From Kordiimonadales bacterium IMCC3096 (GTDB taxonomy: Bacteria; Pseudomonadota; Alphaproteobacteria; Minwuiales; Minwuiaceae): a DNA stretch of 64,000 bases. Position 1 is the stretch's first letter, and each line of letters opens with the position of its first letter. The position numbers were made by a program, and so were the translations under genes. The DNA is taken from positions 124,001 to 188,000 of the forward strand of contig CP018227.1 of assembly GCA_016865035.1 (NCBI GenBank), read 5' to 3'. Positions 35,929-50,413 of the stretch are shown in pieces. The notes beneath the pieces are model-generated. The model did no database searches and had not been told where the DNA came from. It was given only the letters and a program-made list of their open reading frames with translations.

Positions 35929-36813
35929 ATGACAGCCCAGCTGTTCGCCATCATCGCACCGGTCTTCATCATTGCGGGCTTCGGTTTTGGCTGGCGCCGC
36001 CTGCGGCTGCCCTTCGATACGGCAACTGTCACCGCCATCGCAACCAATCTCGGCACGCCGGCCCTGATTCTGGCAACCCTGTCGAAGCTGGAAGTATCGG
36101 CGGAGGCATTCACCGAGATGCTGTTTGCCACCGCGCTGACACTCATCGGTTTCGCGGTCGTCGGCGGCCTCGCCCTGAAGCTGGCGCGCCTGCCGCTGCG
36201 GGCCTTCCTGACGCCGGTCATGATGGCAAACGCAGGCAACATGGGCCTGCCGCTGTGCCTGTTCGCGTTCGGGCAGGAGGGTCTGTCGCTCGCCATCGCC
36301 GTATTCGCGGTGATCGCCGGGTACCATTTCAGCTTCGGCATCGCGGTTGTCTCCGGCCAGTTCAGCCTGCGCCAGCTTGCCCGCACGCCGGTCATCTACG
36401 CGGCGGTCCTGGGGCTGACGATGGTCGCCACAGGTACCGAACTGCCGGGCTGGATCGACAATACGCTGAAACTGCTGGGTGGCATTGCCATCCCGATGAT
36501 GCTTCTGGCGCTGGGTGTGTCCCTGTCGAGCCTGCGCCTCGCCAGTCTGGGTCAGGCCGGTATCGTCGCGGCGATCCGACTGGTGGTCGGGCTGGCTGTC
36601 GGACTGGCGGTGGCGCGCCTGCTGGGCCTGAGCGACACGGCCACGGGCGTGCTGATCATCCAGAGCGCGATGCCGGTCGCCGTCTTCAACTACCTTTTCG
36701 CCAGCCTGTACGATCAGCGGCCCGAAGCGGTCGCCGGTTCGGTCCTGGTCTCCACGGCACTCTCGTTCCTGACCCTGCCGTTCCTGCTGCTGCTGGCACT
36801 CGGACAGCTCTGA
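35929..36813 (+). CDS. AEC-family permease (auxin efflux carrier superfamily)
   Basis: This 294-residue inner-membrane protein has about ten hydrophobic helices in two five-helix halves, the AEC/BASS-type layout. MMANAGNMGLPLCLFAFG and QSAMPVAVFNYLFA are the conserved broken-helix motifs of the two halves. Bacterial AEC proteins move organic acids such as malate or malonate, and sometimes amino-acid derivatives; the auxin name comes from plant PIN proteins. A CAGGAG site precedes the ATG. It is divergent from the monooxygenase pair and could share a promoter region (35743-35928) with it. Confidence 0.92.
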   Translation: MTAQLFAIIAPVFIIAGFGFGWRRLRLPFDTATVTAIATNLGTPALILATLSKLEVSAEAFTEMLFATALTLIGFAVVGGLALKLARLPLRAFLTPVMMANAGNMGLPLCLFAFGQEGLSLAIAVFAVIAGYHFSFGIAVVSGQFSLRQLARTPVIYAAVLGLTMVATGTELPGWIDNTLKLLGGIAIPMMLLALGVSLSSLRLASLGQAGIVAAIRLVVGLAVGLAVARLLGLSDTATGVLIIQSAMPVAVFNYLFASLYDQRPEAVAGSVLVSTALSFLTLPFLLLLALGQL

Positions 36814-40641: not shown

Positions 40642-41751
40642 TCAGTCGGTGACGGTCGTCCCCTGCTCCGATGCGTCCGCCGCGGCCTTCCCGGCGTCAG
40701 GTGCAGCATCGGAAACCGGTTCTGCCGTGTCGCGTGGCGGCTCGATCAGCCCGGCCTCCTCATAGAACCGCCGCGCTCCCGGATGCAGCGGTACGGTGAG
40801 CCCGTCCAGCGCTGTCTGCAACCGGATCTGGCGGCCCTTGACGTGGCCGGAATTGAGCAGCTCGCGGTTGCTGTCGGCCCAGAACGCACGGGTGATCTGG
40901 AAGATCAGTTCCTCATCGGCGTCCTCCAGCACGATCCATTGTGCGCCGACAAGAAGCGTCGGGGTGGTACCGACACCTTCATAGACACCCAGCGGCACGG
41001 CACCGGGGGTGTAGTAGCGGTTGGACAGGATCAACTGGTTTGCCGCGACCCCGGAAATGGGGGCGACGGTGAAACGTCCGGTCTCGGCAAGTTCGGTGAC
41101 GGCAACGGACGGATAGCCGACGACAAAGAAGGCCGCATCGACCTCCCCTTCCAGCAAGGCCGTGATCGCGGCCTCCGGTCCCAGTTCGATCGCCTCGAAG
41201 TCCTCCGGCTCGATGCCATAGGCATTCATGATCAGCAGCGTGTTGATCCGGGTGCCGGATCCGGGACGGTCGATCGCCACCCGCTTGCCCCGCAGGTCGG
41301 ACACCGAAAGGATGCCCAGGTCGCGGCGCACCACCAGATGCACATGCTCGGGATACAGGTTGGCAATCGCGCGCAGCTGCGGATAGGCCTTCTTGCCGGT
41401 GAAGACATGGTCGCCGCGATAGGCCCAGGCGGCGATATCGGCCTGTGACAGCGCCGAGTCGAAACGGCCCGAAACCAGCCCCTCGATATTGTCGAACGAC
41501 CCGCGGCTAGTCACGGCGGTGGCGATCAGATTGTCAACACCGCAGGCACCGCCCTCGTCACAGGGTGCGCTGCCGGGCGGCCGCGAGATGGCCGAGGCAA
41601 TCAGTGCGCCTATCGGGTAGTAGGTTCCGGCGGTCGATCCGGTGCCGATGCGGAACAGCTTCACATCCTGCGCAAACGCAGCCGTAGCGGTAATGAGCAG
41701 AAAGCTCATGAGGATTGCCGCCTTGGCGGTTGTGACCGGCCTTGCCCACAT
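40642..41751 (-). CDS. TAXI-family TRAP transporter solute-binding protein
   Basis: This is a 369-residue periplasmic binding protein. The signal peptide covers about residues 1-27 (ending AAFAQ). The TAXI hallmark IGTGSTAGTYYPIG is at about 35-48, followed by VTSRGSFDNIEGL and SQADIAAWAYRG. TAXI proteins deliver substrates such as glutamate or 2-oxoglutarate to a fused TRAP membrane component. No TRAP membrane gene is in the window, so its partner must lie elsewhere or it acts as a sensor. The C-terminal tail of about 35 residues is Ala/Asp/Glu-rich and likely disordered. It is divergent from the carboxyltransferase gene across 65 bases. Confidence 0.93.
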   Translation of the reverse strand: MWARPVTTAKAAILMSFLLITATAAFAQDVKLFRIGTGSTAGTYYPIGALIASAISRPPGSAPCDEGGACGVDNLIATAVTSRGSFDNIEGLVSGRFDSALSQADIAAWAYRGDHVFTGKKAYPQLRAIANLYPEHVHLVVRRDLGILSVSDLRGKRVAIDRPGSGTRINTLLIMNAYGIEPEDFEAIELGPEAAITALLEGEVDAAFFVVGYPSVAVTELAETGRFTVAPISGVAANQLILSNRYYTPGAVPLGVYEGVGTTPTLLVGAQWIVLEDADEELIFQITRAFWADSNRELLNSGHVKGRQIRLQTALDGLTVPLHPGARRFYEEAGLIEPPRDTAEPVSDAAPDAGKAAADASEQGTTVTD

Positions 41752-41816
41752 GCTTCCCTTATACGCCGATCCGTTCCGGCGACAAGTGCAGGACGGCCAT
41801 CAGGGGGAGCGAACGC

Positions 41817-43358
41817 GTGCGAGACAGTGATTGTGCAGATGAAGACAAGCCGGAGAACCTGAGACCCGACATTGCGGAGGTCGTCCGTCTGCGCCGCGCC
41901 GCGCTGGACGAAGCCCGACCGGAGGCCGTCGCCAAGCGCCGCAAGACCGGCCACAGGACTGCGCGGGAAAACATCGACGACTTCCTGGATGACGGTTCGT
42001 TCCTGGAGATCGGCCGCCTGACAAAGCCCAAGCTGCCGCACATGACCGGCCCGGCGGACGGACTGGTCATGGGCACGGGTACGGTGGAGGGGCTGCCGGT
42101 CGCGGTGATGTCCTATGACTACACCGTCTATGCGGGCACCCAGTCGAGCCACAATCACGTCAAGCACGACCGGCTGTTCCAGCTCGCCATGAAGCATCGC
42201 TGGCCACTGATCACATGGCTGGAGGGTGGCGGGGCGCGTCCGCATGATGCCATGACCGGGCGCGTTGCCACGACGACGACCTTCGTGGACTTCGCCCGTG
42301 CCTCCGGCTGGGTGCCGCTGATCGGCATCTGTGCCGGCCGGGCCTTCGCGGGCAACGCCAACCTGTGCGGCATGTGCGACGTCCTGATCGCCACACCGAA
42401 GGCCGCCATTGGCATGGCCGGACCGCCACTGGTCAAGGCCGCGCTGGGCAAGGATTTCACGCCGGAGGAGATCTGCCCGCCGGAGACCCACATGGCCCAA
42501 GGCGTCATCGACATCATGGTCGCCGACGAGGCCGAGGCCGGGCGCGTCGCGCAGCAGTATCTCGGGTATTTCCAGGGACCCCGCGCACCGGGGGAGACTC
42601 CGGACGTGCGGCGCCTGCGCGATGTGGTGCCGGAGAGCCCGCGTCGGGCCTATGACGTCCGCAAGGTCATTGCCGGGATCGCCGACGTGGACACCTTCCT
42701 GGAGCTGAAGCCGAAGTTCGGGCGTGCCATCGTGACCGGCTTCGCCCATGTCGAGGGCCGTCCGGTCGGCATCATCGCCAACCAGCCGATGTTCATGGCA
42801 GGCGCCATCGACAGCCCCGCGTCGGAGAAGGCGGCACGCTTCATCCAGCTCTGTGACGCGTTCGACATTCCGATGCTGCTGCTGTGCGATACACCGGGCC
42901 TGATGGTCGGACCGGACGTGGAGAAGACCGGCCTGGTCCGCCGCTCGGCGCGCGTCCTCCTCGCCCTCGCCAATGCGACGGTGCCCTTCATCACCGTGGT
43001 GCTGCGCAAGGCCTATGGGCTGGGGTACTACGTGATGGGCTCGGAACCGCTGGAGCCCACGCTGCTGCTCGCCTGGCCAACGGCGGAGTTCGGTGGCATG
43101 GGCATCGAGGGGGCGGTCAACATCATCAACAAGCCCGAACTGGATGCCGCACCGGACAAGGAAACCCACGACCGCATCCATGCCGAGAAGGTGGCGGAAC
43201 TGAAGAAGGCGAATACGGCACTGGAGGTCGCGGGCCGGTTCGAGTTCGACGACGTGATCGACCCGGCCGACACCCGCTGGTACATCGCCGAGACCCTGAA
43301 GCGCCTGCCCGCCCCCGCACCGCGCCAGCATCGGAAACATCCGGTGGACGCGATGTAG
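41817..43358 (+). CDS. Acyl-CoA carboxylase beta (carboxyltransferase) subunit
   Basis: This 513-residue biotin-dependent carboxyltransferase of the PccB/MccB/AccD5 type moves CO2 from carboxybiotin to an acyl-CoA. It has the two crotonase-like halves. Typical runs are RTARENIDDFLDDGSFLEIG, LEGGGARPHD, GRAFAGNANLCGMCD and, in the second half, LCDTPGLMVGPDVEKTG and EFGGMGIEGAV. The likely start is a GTG at 41817 with GGGGGAG in front; the frame stays open a further 25 codons into the divergent promoter space. No biotin carboxylase or carrier subunit is beside it, so the alpha subunit must be encoded elsewhere. Confidence 0.9.
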   Translation: MRDSDCADEDKPENLRPDIAEVVRLRRAALDEARPEAVAKRRKTGHRTARENIDDFLDDGSFLEIGRLTKPKLPHMTGPADGLVMGTGTVEGLPVAVMSYDYTVYAGTQSSHNHVKHDRLFQLAMKHRWPLITWLEGGGARPHDAMTGRVATTTTFVDFARASGWVPLIGICAGRAFAGNANLCGMCDVLIATPKAAIGMAGPPLVKAALGKDFTPEEICPPETHMAQGVIDIMVADEAEAGRVAQQYLGYFQGPRAPGETPDVRRLRDVVPESPRRAYDVRKVIAGIADVDTFLELKPKFGRAIVTGFAHVEGRPVGIIANQPMFMAGAIDSPASEKAARFIQLCDAFDIPMLLLCDTPGLMVGPDVEKTGLVRRSARVLLALANATVPFITVVLRKAYGLGYYVMGSEPLEPTLLLAWPTAEFGGMGIEGAVNIINKPELDAAPDKETHDRIHAEKVAELKKANTALEVAGRFEFDDVIDPADTRWYIAETLKRLPAPAPRQHRKHPVDAM

Positions 43359-43410: not shown

Positions 43411-44139
43411 ATGATCGTCGGACGACAGACCGCGTTGTTCCTGGACTATGACGGAACCCTGGTCGATCTGGCCGCAACGCCGGAGGCTGCGCAGCCGCCG
43501 GAGGGTCTCGTGCCGCTGCTGCAGCGACTGGGGGCCGCCCTGGACGGCGCGGTTGCCATCCTGAGCGGGCGCACCGTTGCGGACATCGACCGGATGCTCA
43601 CGCCCCTGCAGGCAACTGTCGGCGGCGTTCACGGCGCAGAGATTCGGATGGCCGATGGCGCGCTCGAGTGCCTGGAGGTGCCCGGCGAACTGGTTGCAAT
43701 CCGCACCCTGTGCAACGCACTGGCCGACGAGACGCCGGCGCTGCGCGTCGAGGACAAGGGACAGGCCATCGCCGTCCATTTCCGCGCGGTCCCGGCGGCG
43801 GAGAAACGGGTCGGCCATGCCCTGCAGGCCGCGCTGGCCACAAGCCGCGATCTGGAGCTGATCCACGGCAAGATGGTCTATGAGGTGCGCCGCCCCGGCA
43901 TGCACAAGGGGGCGGTGCTGCAACGTCTGATGCAACGCGCGCCGTTCCGTGATCGCATACCCCTGATGATCGGCGACGACCGGACCGACGAGGATGCCTT
44001 CGCCATGGCTTTGCAACTCGGCGGTTCAGCCATCAAGGTCGGTGACGGCGAAACCGTCGCGACCTCCCGCCTCGGCGATCCCGATGCCGTGCGCCACCTG
44101 CTCGCACAGGCCGTTGAAACGATGAAGGATGACCAATGA
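43411..44139 (+). CDS. otsB: Trehalose-6-phosphate phosphatase
   Basis: This 242-residue HAD-superfamily phosphatase converts trehalose-6-phosphate to trehalose. HAD motif I is FLDYDGTLVD (nucleophile D11 of the chain), motif II is AILSGRTVADID, and motif IV is GDDRTDEDAF. It is the first gene of the trehalose operon otsB - GH15 - otsA - glk. A 52-base gap follows the carboxyltransferase stop. Its stop overlaps the GH15 start (ATGA), so the products are made together. Confidence 0.96.
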   Translation: MIVGRQTALFLDYDGTLVDLAATPEAAQPPEGLVPLLQRLGAALDGAVAILSGRTVADIDRMLTPLQATVGGVHGAEIRMADGALECLEVPGELVAIRTLCNALADETPALRVEDKGQAIAVHFRAVPAAEKRVGHALQAALATSRDLELIHGKMVYEVRRPGMHKGAVLQRLMQRAPFRDRIPLMIGDDRTDEDAFAMALQLGGSAIKVGDGETVATSRLGDPDAVRHLLAQAVETMKDDQ

Positions 44140-45947
44140 CCAGCCAGACCGCCGCAACCCGGGTGCCCTCTTTGAATCTCGGGGTCATTGGCAATTGCGC
44201 CTTCAACGCTCTGGTTGATGACAGGGGCGCTGTCGTCTGGTGCTGCCTGCCGCGCTATGACAGCGAGCCTGTGTTTCATGCCCTTCTGAGCGACGGCAAG
44301 GACCGGCCGAACGGCAGTTTCGTGATCGATGTCGAGGATTTCGACCGCGCCGAACAGGCCTATGATCCCAACACGGCGATCTCGCGGACGCGTCTGTTCG
44401 ACGGCAGTGGCCGGGGCGTGGAGATCACCGACTTCGCGCCGCGCTTCTCCGCCCGGGGCCGCATGTTCCGCCCCCTCACCCTGGTGCGCCGGTTGCGCCC
44501 GATCAACGGATCGCCCCGCATCCGCATCCGGCTGCGGCCCACGCACGGCTGGGGCACCAAGGCCCCGACCATCACCCATGGCAGCAATCACATCCGCTAT
44601 GTCAGCGACCACTACACCATGCGCTTCACCACCAGCGCGCCGGTCGACTACGTGCTGAAGGAGACCGCGTTCCTGCTCGACCAGCCGCTCGACATGATCC
44701 TGGGTCCGGACGAGACACTGACGTCCGGTGTCAGCGAGACCGCCGCCGAGTTCGAGGAGAAGACCGCGGACTACTGGCGGCACTGGACCCGCCGCCTCGC
44801 CCTGCCGCTGGAATGGCAGGAGGCTGTGATCCGCTCCGCCATTACCCTGAAGCTCTGCGTGTTCGAGGAAACGGGCGCCATTGTCGCCGCGCTGACCACC
44901 AGCATCCCGGAGTCAGCCGGTTCGGGGCGGAACTGGGACTATCGCTTCTGCTGGCTGCGCGATGCCTTCTTCGTGGTCCGCGCGCTCAACACGCTGGCCG
45001 AGGTCGGCACCATGGAGGATTACCTGCGCTGGCTGCGCAATGTCGTGGTCGATGCCGACGGCGGCCACATGCAGCCCGTCTACGGCATCGGGCTGGAGGC
45101 GCAGATCAGCGAACGGATCATCGGGGAGATCCCCGGCTATCGCGGGATGGGTCCGGTCCGGGTCGGCAACCAGGCGCATGAGCACTTCCAGTACGACGTC
45201 TTCGGCAATGTCGTGCTGGGGGCGGCGCAGGCCTTCTTCGACAAGCGGTTGCTGCGTCCCGCCGACATCGACGATTTCGAGCGGCTGGAGAAGGTCGGCG
45301 AGCAGGCCTTCCATTTCCATGACAAGCCCGACGCCGGCATGTGGGAGTTGCGGACGCGGGCGCGGGTCCATACCTCGTCAGCGCTGATGTGCTGGGCTGC
45401 CTGCGACCGACTGGCGAAGATCGCGACCGAGATCGGGCGGCCTGATCGCGAGACCTTCTGGGCCGACCGTGCCACGATCATCCGGGACCGCATCCTGACC
45501 GAGTCCTGGAGCGAGGAACGCTAGGCCTTCGCGGAGAGCTTCGGCGGACGCGACCTTGACGCCTCTGTCCTGCTGATGGCGGAGGTCGGGCTGATCGACC
45601 CGATGGACCCGCGCTTCGTTTCCACCGTCGAGCGGCTGGAGGAAACCCTGACAGACGGCCCGCACATGCGGCGCTACGAAGCGGCGGATGACTTCGGCGC
45701 ACCGGAAGTGTCGTTCAACATCTGTGCCTTCTGGCGCATCGAGGCCCTGGCCAGGATCGGCCAGATCGACAAGGCCCGCGAGACCTTCGAGGCCATGCTG
45801 GCCCTGCGCAATCCGCTTGGTCTGCTGTCGGAGGACACGCACCCGGAAACAGGCGAGCTCTGGGGCAACTTCCCCCAGACCTATTCGATGGTCGGTATCA
45901 TCAATTGCGCCCGATTGCTGAGCAAGGGATGGGAGACCCGGATATGA
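44136..45947 (+). pseudogene. GH15 glucoamylase/trehalase-like hydrolase interrupted by in-frame TAG
   Basis: The reading frame codes for a GH15 hydrolase of about 602 residues, normal for the trehalase-like branch seen beside ots genes, but codon 463 is TAG (45522-45524). The frame continues without shift to the TGA at 45945-45947. Before the stop are LNLGVIGNCAFNALVDD and NWDYRFCWLRDA, a GH15 landmark. After it come AFAESFGGRDLDASVLLMAEVGL and GNFPQTYSMVGI, conserved C-terminal parts expected to hold the catalytic base. One base change (for example CAG or TGG to TAG) explains it. Both ends keep ATGA overlaps with otsB and otsA. It is either a recent null allele, a readthrough or suppressed codon, or a sequencing error. 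Confidence 0.85.
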
Positions 45948-47335
45948 GCCGCCTGATCGTCGTTTCGAACCGGGTGCAGGACCCGGCTGCCGGTCCGGGC
46001 GCAGGGGGCCTGGCCGTGGCGCTGGGCGAAGCGCTGGAGGCCAATGGCGGTGTCTGGATCGGCTGGGATGGCCGGGTGGAAACCGACCCGCTCCAACCCG
46101 TGAGCTGGAACGAGCACAGGTCAGGCAACCTGACACTGCTGACCACATCCCTGACGCCGGAGGAGCATGAGGGGTATTATCTCGGCTTCGCCAACCGGGT
46201 GCTCTGGCCCGCGTTTCACTATCGCCTGGATCTCGTCGACTACACCACCGACCACTCACGTGTTTACGGCGCGGTGAACCGTCGTCTTCCCATGAAGGTC
46301 GCGTCGATCCTTCGGCCCGATGACAGGATATGGATCCATGACTATCACCTGATCCCGCTGGCGGCGGAGCTGCGGGCAACGGGCTGTGGCAATCCCATCG
46401 GCTATTTCCAGCACATTCCCATGCCACCCCCCAGCATCATGGCGGCGGTGCCGGAAGTAAGCTGGCTGGTGCGCACGCTGTTCGCCTACGACGTGGTCGG
46501 ATTCCAGACGGAAACCGACCGGCTGCATCTGGTCCAGCAGGTGCAGCAACTGGAGAGCGATACGGAATCGGACGGCGAATATGTGACCGCCTTCGGGCGC
46601 TCCACCCGGGTCAAGTCCTACCCCATCGGCATTGATGCCGGCCGCTTTGCCGCCATGGCGCGCACCCCCAACGCCCAGGAGATCATTGATCGTATCCGAC
46701 AGCGCAACCTGAACCGGTCGCAGGTCATTGGCGTTGACCGGATGGATTATTCCAAGGGTCTGCCGGAACGGATGGAATCGGTGCGCCGCCTGTTCGAGCT
46801 CTATCCGGAGAACCGCGGTGCCATGACCTTCATGCAGATCGCCCCGACATCGCGCGGTGCGGTCGATGCCTATGTCGATCTGCACGAACGCCTGGACTCG
46901 CTCAGCGGGGAGATCAACAGCAAGTTCAGCGACTTCGACTGGACACCGATCCGCTACATCAATCGCCAGTTCCCCCGCGAGACGCTCGCCGCCCTGTATC
47001 GCGCCAGCCGCGCCGCGCTGATCACGCCGCTCCGCGACGGCATGAACCTGGTGGCGCATGAATATGTGGCGGCACAGAATCCGGATGATCCCGGCATGCC
47101 GGTCCTGTCACGCTTTGCCGGCGCGGCCGAGTACATGGACGAGGCCCTGCTGATCAATCCCTACAACATCGACCAGACAGCCATCGCGCTGCAGACCGCC
47201 CTGCAGATGCCGCTGAAGGAACGCAAGCGCCGCCACAAGGCCCTGATGAAGGTGGTTCAGGACCTGGACGTTTCCCGCTGGAGCAGCCGGTTCCTCAACG
47301 ACCTGAGCCAGTTGCTGCGCGCGGTTCCGGGCTGA
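45944..47335 (+). CDS. otsA: Trehalose-6-phosphate synthase
   Basis: This 463-residue GT20 enzyme joins UDP-glucose and glucose-6-phosphate. It opens SRLIVVSNRVQDP, with IWIHDYHLIPLAAELR in the centre. The donor-site residues lie in GVDRMDYSKGLPERM and LRDGMNLVAHEYVA. The ATG overlaps the GH15 stop by ATGA; an in-frame opening 13 codons upstream falls inside the GH15 gene. With OtsB it makes the compatible solute trehalose, usually in response to osmotic, desiccation or heat stress. Confidence 0.97.
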   Translation: MSRLIVVSNRVQDPAAGPGAGGLAVALGEALEANGGVWIGWDGRVETDPLQPVSWNEHRSGNLTLLTTSLTPEEHEGYYLGFANRVLWPAFHYRLDLVDYTTDHSRVYGAVNRRLPMKVASILRPDDRIWIHDYHLIPLAAELRATGCGNPIGYFQHIPMPPPSIMAAVPEVSWLVRTLFAYDVVGFQTETDRLHLVQQVQQLESDTESDGEYVTAFGRSTRVKSYPIGIDAGRFAAMARTPNAQEIIDRIRQRNLNRSQVIGVDRMDYSKGLPERMESVRRLFELYPENRGAMTFMQIAPTSRGAVDAYVDLHERLDSLSGEINSKFSDFDWTPIRYINRQFPRETLAALYRASRAALITPLRDGMNLVAHEYVAAQNPDDPGMPVLSRFAGAAEYMDEALLINPYNIDQTAIALQTALQMPLKERKRRHKALMKVVQDLDVSRWSSRFLNDLSQLLRAVPG

Positions 47336-47351
47336 GGGAGGGACAGGTCCG

Positions 47352-48242
47352 ATGCGACTGATCGCGGATATCGGTGGGACTCATGCCCGCTTCGGCCTTG
47401 TCGACGGACAGGGCACACCTTCCCGCGTCCAGAAAATGCAGACCGCCGACCACGTCGGCTTCGCGGAGGCGGCCCGTACCTATCTCGCGGCGAACGGCCT
47501 CCCGAACCTCGCTTCGGTTGCGGTCGCCATCGCCGGACCGGTGAGTGGTGGCGCGGGTCGGCTGGTCAATGGACCCTGGCAGTTCGACCTGCCGATGCTG
47601 CGTGACCTGGCTGCCGGTGGCGAGGGCCGGCTGCTGAATGACCTGCAGGCGGCGGCCATGGGAACCCGTTACTGCAGTCCCAGGCCATTGGCGTCCAGGA
47701 AGTTGCCGGATCACGATCGTCCGGTGCTGACCATCGGGGTCGGGACCGGAATCGGCGGGAGCCTGCTGGTTCCGGACGGGTCGGGCAGCCAGATTGCCGT
47801 GGCGACAGAGATCGGCCATGGGCTGCTCTCCACCCGCGGCCTTCTCGACACCGACGTCCCGTTCAGCGCCGAAGCCCTGCTTTCAGGCACCGGACTGCCA
47901 CAGCTCTGCCGGGTCGCGGGGTTCCGCGATGGAACACGGACGGCACCGGAGGTCATTGAATTCCTGCGCCAGGCGACACCATCGGCGCTGCGGCTGGGAC
48001 AGCTCTACGCCCAGTTGTTCGCCCGTTTCGCGGCAACGGCTGCACTGACGACAGGCGCGACGGGCGGCGTGATCATTGTCGGCGGACTGGCGAAACGGCT
48101 GTTTCCGCTGTTGCCGACTGCAACGCTGGTCTCAGCCTTTCACCTGCCCGGCCCCATGCAGGACTGGCTGCGCGATGTCAGCATCTGCCAGGTGACCGAC
48201 GACGACGTGGCGTTGAAGGGACTCGCCGGAATGCCGATCTGA
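47352..48242 (+). CDS. glk: Glucokinase (Glk family)
   Basis: This 296-residue sugar kinase of the proteobacterial Glk family opens RLIADIGGTHARFGLV (ATP-phosphate loop at the N-terminus). It has GTGIGGSLLVPDG, EIGHGLLS (the E in contact with glucose) and VIIVGGLAKRLFPLL. It phosphorylates glucose with ATP. It sits 16 bases after otsA, so glucose released from trehalose by the GH15 enzyme could be returned to glucose-6-phosphate, a substrate of OtsA. That makes the operon a self-contained trehalose cycle, provided the GH15 protein is made. Confidence 0.93.
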   Translation: MRLIADIGGTHARFGLVDGQGTPSRVQKMQTADHVGFAEAARTYLAANGLPNLASVAVAIAGPVSGGAGRLVNGPWQFDLPMLRDLAAGGEGRLLNDLQAAAMGTRYCSPRPLASRKLPDHDRPVLTIGVGTGIGGSLLVPDGSGSQIAVATEIGHGLLSTRGLLDTDVPFSAEALLSGTGLPQLCRVAGFRDGTRTAPEVIEFLRQATPSALRLGQLYAQLFARFAATAALTTGATGGVIIVGGLAKRLFPLLPTATLVSAFHLPGPMQDWLRDVSICQVTDDDVALKGLAGMPI

Positions 48243-49107: not shown

Positions 49108-50115
49108 TCACCCGACCGTCAGCATGATCTTGCCGACATGGTTGCTGGCCTCCATCAGGGCATGTGCCTCGGACGCCTTCTCCAGCGGCAGCACGGTATC
49201 GATGACCGGCAGCGCGCGCCCGTCAGCCAGCAGCGGCAGCACGTGATCCTCCAGCGCGCGGGCGATCAGCGCCTTGTCCGCCACGGGACGGGGGCGCAGG
49301 GTCGAACCGGAAAGGTGCAACCGCTTCTGCATCACATGCAGCAGGTTCAGTTCCACCTTCGGCCCCTGCTGGACAGCGATCTGCACCAGCCGTCCCTCCA
49401 CGGCCAGCGACTTCACGTTGCGCGCGAAGTAGTCGGCACCGCCGACCATGTCGAGAACCAGGTTGACCCCCTCCCCGCCGGTGAGTTCCGCGATCACCTC
49501 CGCGAAATCCTCCTCCCGGTAGTTGATCGCCCGCTCCGCGCCCAGATCGACGCAGGCGGCGCATTTCTCGGCCGATCCGGCCGTCACGAAGACCCGCGCC
49601 CCGAAGGCTTTCGCAAGCTGGATCGCCGTCGTGCCGATACCGCTGGACCCGCCATGGATCAGGACACTCTCGCCGCCCTGCAGCTTTCCGCGCTCGAACA
49701 TGTTGGTCCAGACGGTGAAATAGGTTTCCGGCACCGCCGCCGCATGCACCATGTCCAGGCTGGCCGGGACGTTCAGGCACTGCCCCTCCGGCGCGACGCA
49801 ATATTCGGCATAGCCACCACCGGCAACCAGCGCCATGACGCGATCACCCACATTGAACTGATGCACCCCGTCTCCCTTGGCGGCCACGGTCCCCGCGACT
49901 TCCAGCCCCGGATAGTCCGGGGCGCCCGGCGGCGGCGGATAGCCACCCGTCCGCTGCATGACGTCGGGACGGTTCACGCCTGCCGCCGCGACCTTGATCA
50001 GCACCTCGTCGTGACCCGGTGCGGGAACGGGGCGCGTCATGGGCTTCAGCACCTCCGGTGCACCGAATCCATCCAGGCCAATCACCGTCATTTCCGTCGG
50101 CAGTGTCTCGCTCAT
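49108..50115 (-). CDS. NAD(P)H:quinone oxidoreductase, zeta-crystallin type (MDR family)
   Basis: This is a 335-residue medium-chain reductase of the quinone oxidoreductase class, with no structural zinc site visible. The N-terminal GroES-like fold includes GVNRPDVMQRTGGYPPPPGAP, and the NADPH site is IHGGSSGIGTTAIQLAKAFGARVF. These enzymes reduce quinones or enones. The ATG at 50113-50115 has GAGGGAAC in front. The frame stays open 95 more codons upstream, but that part lies opposite the DUF1192 gene and is a low-complexity shadow, so it is rejected. Confidence 0.93.
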   Translation of the reverse strand: MSETLPTEMTVIGLDGFGAPEVLKPMTRPVPAPGHDEVLIKVAAAGVNRPDVMQRTGGYPPPPGAPDYPGLEVAGTVAAKGDGVHQFNVGDRVMALVAGGGYAEYCVAPEGQCLNVPASLDMVHAAAVPETYFTVWTNMFERGKLQGGESVLIHGGSSGIGTTAIQLAKAFGARVFVTAGSAEKCAACVDLGAERAINYREEDFAEVIAELTGGEGVNLVLDMVGGADYFARNVKSLAVEGRLVQIAVQQGPKVELNLLHVMQKRLHLSGSTLRPRPVADKALIARALEDHVLPLLADGRALPVIDTVLPLEKASEAHALMEASNHVGKIMLTVG

Positions 50116-50233
50116 GTGCTGTTCCCTCACCCTGTGCCACGAAGACGCCCGGTCATTCATGCCAGCGTCCCTTTGTCGATCAACGTGCACCTGATCTATG
50201 CTTGCTGCCCCGGAGTGGCAAGCGGAGGCAACA

Positions 50234-50413
50234 ATGGAAGATGAGGAACGCGCGCGGGAGAAGTATTTCCAGTCCCGCGATCTGGACGATGTCTCGATCG
50301 AAGAGCTGCAGGAACGGATCGTCGAACTGGAGGCGGAGATCACGACCCTGCGTGCCGTGATCGAGAAGAAGCACAGCGTGCGCAGTGCCGCTGATTCCAT
50401 ATTCAGCCGCTAG
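50234..50413 (+). CDS. Small DUF1192-family protein
   Basis: This 59-residue protein is acidic at the N-terminus (MEDEERAREKYFQSRDLDD). A coiled-coil-like helix follows (VSIEELQERIVELEAEITTLRAVIEKK) and then RSAADSIF, a composition typical of the alphaproteobacterial DUF1192 family. Its function is unknown; the leucine-heptad helix suggests dimerisation. The ATG at 50234 is preceded by GCGGAGGC; an upstream in-frame ATG lies before that site. It is the last gene before the 490-base non-coding region. Confidence 0.85.
   Translation: MEDEERAREKYFQSRDLDDVSIEELQERIVELEAEITTLRAVIEKKHSVRSAADSIFSR

Follow-up and report, generated by a model that had tools for sequence, protein, structure and literature searches.

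A probable recent nonsense mutation in the trehalase-type GH15 gene of an otsB-GH15-otsA cluster in Kordiimonadales bacterium IMCC3096

Code variants that decode UAG, as pyrrolysine or as glutamine, are known, and so are amber suppressor strains. The locus described here resembles them in having an in-frame UAG at a codon that specifies glutamine in sister species; it differs from them in that its genome keeps RF1, yielded no tRNA with a CUA anticodon, uses TAG as a stop and showed no further TAG-interrupted gene in the sample scanned. Likeness to young nonsense pseudogenes and polymorphisms, as far as these are described in two published sources (PMC522871; PMC7918605), is closer to hand: a single in-frame stop, an intact gene in sister species, a CAG/TAG site, a role in carbohydrate metabolism and a dN/dS ratio that is still low. 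Pseudogenes are reported to make up 1-5% of the gene-like sequences of most prokaryotes surveyed (PMC522871), and on that figure a nonsense event of this kind is not rare. Belinky et al. (2021; PMC7918605) describe in-frame stops in bacterial genes as widespread, many of them with dN/dS below 1 and possibly lowering expression; in the same account these stops are short-lived, on the scale of population polymorphism, frequent readthrough is proposed, and the example given is a TAG/CAG site. In contrast to the published polymorphisms, the stop reported here is known from one assembly, in which polymorphism and error look alike.

For the enzyme itself, the closest known systems are the alpha,alpha-trehalases of glycoside hydrolase family 15 (GH15). 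They include the archaeal TreH1 and TreH2 and the GH15 trehalases of Mycobacterium and Microvirga treated in PMC10969515. The read-through protein carries TREH_N and Glyco_hydro_15 domains, its predicted fold matches that of GH15 enzymes, and its catalytic loops agree with those described for the family.

The window, that is the whole stretch of 64,000 nucleotides that was analysed, carries an otsB-GH15-otsA-glucokinase cluster on one strand at 43411-48242 (Table 1). The GH15 frame runs from 44136 to 45947 and comprises 603 codons before its TGA. The original prediction had claimed a single in-frame TAG in this gene, and codon 463 is indeed its sole internal stop, with 140 codons left downstream; a search of the whole genome flagged the same site ("1 TAG" in a 604-codon open frame). 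Both ATGA overlaps, otsB/GH15 at 44136-44139 and GH15/otsA at 45944-45947, are intact, the second as had been predicted.

Table 1. Features of the trehalose gene cluster, in window coordinates.
Feature	Position	Strand	Remarks
otsB, trehalose-6-phosphate phosphatase, intact	43411..44139	+	PF02358 E 7.7e-36; TIGR00685 149.5 bits, cut-off 68.05
GH15 trehalase-type gene, truncated form: 462 codons, then TAG	44136..45524	+	N-terminal domain, barrel helices 1-7 and general acid E404 (putative) retained
In-frame TAG, codon 463	45522..45524	+	CAG in three same-genus orthologues
140 conserved codons and TGA past the stop	45525..45947	+	barrel helices 8-12, putative general base E566 (codon 45831-45833)
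123-codon ATG frame within the lost part, possible reinitiation product	45576..45947	+	PF00723 profile positions 259-426
otsA, trehalose-6-phosphate synthase, intact	45944..47335	+	PF00982 E 4.9e-113; TIGR02400 522.1 bits, below equivalog cut-off 564.85
Glucokinase, 16 bases after otsA	47352..48242	+	PF02685 E 4e-46

The read-through protein matches the Glyco_hydro_15 family PF00723 with 145.3 bits (cut-off 22) and the trehalase N-terminal domain PF19291 with 27.4 bits (cut-off 23.1). Its best NCBIfam matches are TreH1 (274.1 bits) and TreH2 (199 bits); the TreH1 score lies far below the equivalog cut-off of 820 bits (NF041084), and in contrast to the GH15 trehalases named above the enzyme is truncated by a stop and is known here from sequence. 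A search of solved structures with the single sequence gave no match, and a profile search gave weak GH15 matches (9ju0, 1lf6 and the 5z3 group) amid spurious matches to repeat proteins. The predicted structure of the read-through protein (pLDDT 90.1, pTM 0.91) shows an N-terminal beta domain followed by an (alpha/alpha)6 barrel, as in solved GH15 enzymes, and both domains align with the bacterial glucoamylase 1lf6 (Z 38.9, rmsd 3.1, 521 residues aligned) and with the glucodextranase 1ug9 (Z 37.6, rmsd 3.1, 523 residues aligned). From the operon context and the domains we infer that the substrate is trehalose.

In GH15 enzymes the general acid is placed in the loop between helices 5 and 6 and the general base in that between helices 11 and 12 (PMC12446779). 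Helix numbers and catalytic roles were assigned here on the model, whose barrel shows twelve long helices; on this numbering the general acid is predicted to be E404 (loop 395-412) and the general base E566 (loop 556-581); each residue is invariant in the 37 sequences aligned. The stop falls between helices 7 and 8, so that the truncated product keeps E404 while E566 and five of the twelve barrel helices are gone. The predicted loss of the C-terminal catalytic part is thereby borne out, and because base and helices are both missing, the 462-residue fragment is probably dead.

The PF00723 match extends over the stop (residues 229-592 of the read-through frame), and over the whole frame the gene is 86.7-97.7% identical to three orthologues, which bears out the view that the sequence past the TAG is conserved GH15 sequence. 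These orthologues, from the same genus (97.7, 95.0 and 86.7% identical), all have CAG at codon 463 and an uninterrupted frame, from which it follows that the part past the stop is coding by descent. Glutamine is thus the residue of all three at this position, and CAG is among the codons from which the prediction had expected the TAG to arise by one base change; a single C-to-T suffices. On these alignments the stop appears to be new in the lineage of the sequenced strain, through that one change. The gene accordingly shows the mark by which a nonsense pseudogene is recognised, an in-frame stop where sister species keep the reading frame open.

A wider comparison was made by searching the read-through frame against 96 loci. 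The 60 relatives searched at the outset belong to one class; the best 80 hits retained from named genomes come mostly from Alpha- and Betaproteobacteria, judging by title. Ninety-three rows span the site, two of which are the gene itself. In the 91 others, two of which represent one gene of a single genome (G048), 90 carry a sense codon (25 Q, 38 G, 15 N and 12 others) and one a gap, and no stop occurs anywhere in their aligned part; with such variety, position 463 does not hold an invariant catalytic residue. Sequence on both sides was long enough to judge the neighbours in 63 of the 80 named-genome loci; otsB lies upstream in 58 of these and otsA downstream on the same strand in 41. The genus is represented by seven genomes, including this one: otsA and GH15 occur together in four, and both are absent from the other three, one of which is just 89% complete.

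In a sample of the class, 86 of 385 genomes gave a GH15 match (107 rows), and three rows contained stops: the present gene, a copy in the draft genome G331 that is broken into pieces in three frames, and a row of G269, rejected as a broken gene since the true start comes after its stop. Six partial matches were also looked at. One of them (G311) ends at query residue 466; it was dismissed as a split gene on account of a run of N beyond which the C-terminal part resumes, and the break is best read as an assembly gap or a withheld stretch. Three others reach a contig end (L184, L185, L186), L183 starts 140 bases from one, and L187 is a nearly whole gene.

The part past the stop was compared codon by codon, own-branch changes being counted where the relatives G001 and G002 agree. 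Its 140 codons have acquired one amino-acid change, to a state shared with G004, and nine silent ones, and dN/dS against G001 is 0.017, which argues that the frame was in use until lately. The low amino-acid change looks like that of a young lesion rather than of old decay. Over the whole gene there are five amino-acid changes apart from the stop, where about 160 would be expected from drift over the entire branch; by simple counting, good to orders of magnitude, a neutral period would cover at most about 7% of the branch (20% from the part past the stop alone). The ratio of amino-acid to silent changes is similar in GH15 (5:52) and in otsA (5:36; p 0.74). The own-branch counts thus hold no sign of relaxed selection past the stop, an absence that is expected of a very young lesion, and three readings of the stop fit: that it arose very recently, that it is an error, or that it has no effect. 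As a young lesion it fits the short-lived polymorphisms of Belinky et al. (2021), as far as that study describes them.

The best explanation, with a probability of roughly three in four, is that the sequenced strain recently acquired a nonsense mutation. The ancestral gene would have encoded a 603-residue GH15 enzyme of the alpha,alpha-trehalase type, as it does in those sister species that carry the gene, and a C-to-T change would have turned the CAG of codon 463, for glutamine, into TAG. Ribosomes ending there would make a product of 462 residues, presumably inactive because its (alpha/alpha)6 barrel is unfinished and the general base is missing, and would leave 419 untranslated bases ahead of otsA, whose expression may be lowered as a result.

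The main competitor, distinctly less probable, is that the gene is in truth intact and the TAG a mistake of base calling or assembly. A single base differs in one assembly, and the rest of the gene is without relaxation, both of which an error would explain. Moreover, the site reads CCAGG in the three sister orthologues, the changed base being the second C, and the genome holds one gene of the cytosine-C5 DNA methylase family (3699763-3700962). Cytosine methylation in CCAGG-type contexts can mislead some long-read base callers. Against an error stand the quality of the 4.29 Mb assembly, a single contig that is 100% complete and 0.03% contaminated, and the lack of an excess of C-to-T changes at CCWGG on the own branch (2 of 216 such sites, compared with 500 of 18307 cytosines overall). 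A mutational hotspot at methylated cytosines was considered separately and discarded, C-to-T being rarer at CCWGG on this branch and also on that of G001 (1 of 493 against 575 of 41033). The tetranucleotide CTAG, one of which is created by the new TAG, is strongly under-represented in 384 kb of this genome (60 seen, 306 expected).

Some degree of readthrough of the UAG, by near-cognate decoding or an unrecognised suppressor tRNA, giving less full-length trehalase, is unlikely. The conservation past the stop is what functional readthrough would also leave behind, and the in-frame stops with dN/dS below 1 and the TAG/CAG example reported by Belinky et al. (2021; PMC7918605) speak for it in the same way. 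The genome speaks against it, as do the relatives, which lack the stop. RF1 (prfA) is present (479.4 bits, cut-off 423.25), and none of 42 tRNA genes found has a CUA anticodon. That list is incomplete, as tRNA-Ile(GAT), tRNA-Ala(TGC) and tRNA-Leu(CAA), all expected in a bacterium, are missing from it; a search for a CUA anticodon loop combined with a T-loop was therefore added. With the anticodon letters left free but its position as anchor, the pattern recovers 42 of the 42 known tRNAs; the CUA pattern itself matched the genome at two places only, of which one is a tRNA-Arg(TCT) and the other holds no tRNA that was found. TAG is an ordinary terminator: of 138 long coding frames in the sample, 19 end with it (18 of 137 when GH15 is left out). 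When 384 kb (9% of the genome) were scanned by codon usage, coding stretches were separated by an in-frame stop at 30 places (22 TGA, 5 TAG, 3 TAA); a stricter first version of the scan had missed the GH15 site. The TAG cases were examined: besides GH15, the other four are ordinary gene ends that separate two different proteins, and no other TAG inside a gene was found in the 384 kb. Predicted genes of G002 and G001, compared with 144 kb of this genome at 70% identity or more, met stops in 9 of 93 and 3 of 44 genes, respectively; those outside GH15 were set aside because they precede the probable start codon or fall in a frame that runs antisense to a true gene, on inspection of four alignments and the antisense case and otherwise by nearness to the frame start. 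In the reverse comparison of this strain's genes with G002 and G001, the stops listed in the relatives are all TGA. Neither at the stop nor after it is RNA structure stronger than chance (z -0.36 and -1.14), and a stop conserved in relatives, the hallmark of programmed readthrough, is absent from the 91 other aligned rows. Reassignment of UAG hence finds no support in RF1, the tRNAs or the use of TAG, and neither does readthrough or a suppressor tRNA, which the original prediction had allowed as the more unusual possibility; of the signs that it proposed to look for, further TAG-interrupted genes did not turn up in the 384 kb scanned, nor a CUA tRNA in the tRNA and pattern searches. Slightly less likely still is a form of readthrough in which the TAG would act as a reversible brake: traces of full-length trehalase made by near-cognate readthrough would combine hoarding with slow recycling, and TAG and CAG would flip within the population. 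Least likely of all is a genuine split gene, in which a C-terminal protein would restart at the ATG at 45576 and complement the N-terminal fragment. A 123-codon frame does begin there, 51 bases past the stop, yet no Shine-Dalgarno-like sequence was seen by eye ahead of it, and its product would lack residues 464-480, which form most of helix 8 and include the invariant D475 and A476. Nor does any relative examined split at this point: a separate C-terminal protein by design, named beforehand as an alternative, is contradicted by the 91 rows that continue across the site without a change of frame and by the six partial matches, none of which is a split.

If the nonsense mutation is real, its consequences would fall on trehalose degradation. 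Besides its single GH15 gene, the genome gave no match to GH37, GH65 or GH13, the control genomes matching alongside with 3, 4 and 13 of 14, respectively; there is consequently no recognised route back for trehalose, although one outside these families is conceivable. With OtsA and OtsB intact and the truncated GH15 protein dead, trehalose would be made and would not be returned to glucose by any recognised route. Synthesis would be kept while the only recognised trehalose-degrading enzyme is lost; trehalose pools should then rise, and stress tolerance could change. Loss of the translational coupling of otsA is plausible from the gene arrangement, and a Shine-Dalgarno-like GGGAG 8 nt before its ATG may offer independent initiation. 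A search for promoters and terminators in 45300-46100 found none. The locus also makes a clean test case, in that a suspected recoding event shows no testable sign of altered decoding.

Elsewhere in the window, the G002 copies of the genes at 49108-50400 and 35929-36813 are each in two pieces on a draft contig, which could be frameshifts or draft errors. A carboxyl transferase gene (41742-43358; PF01039) sits between a gene for an NMT1-like receptor and otsB. Most of it (about 41909-43233) is unmatched in the G001 and G002 stretches compared, and in G004 only its middle part is missing (about 42114-42935); the difference from G001 and G002 appears to be an insertion or a loss adjoining the trehalose operon.
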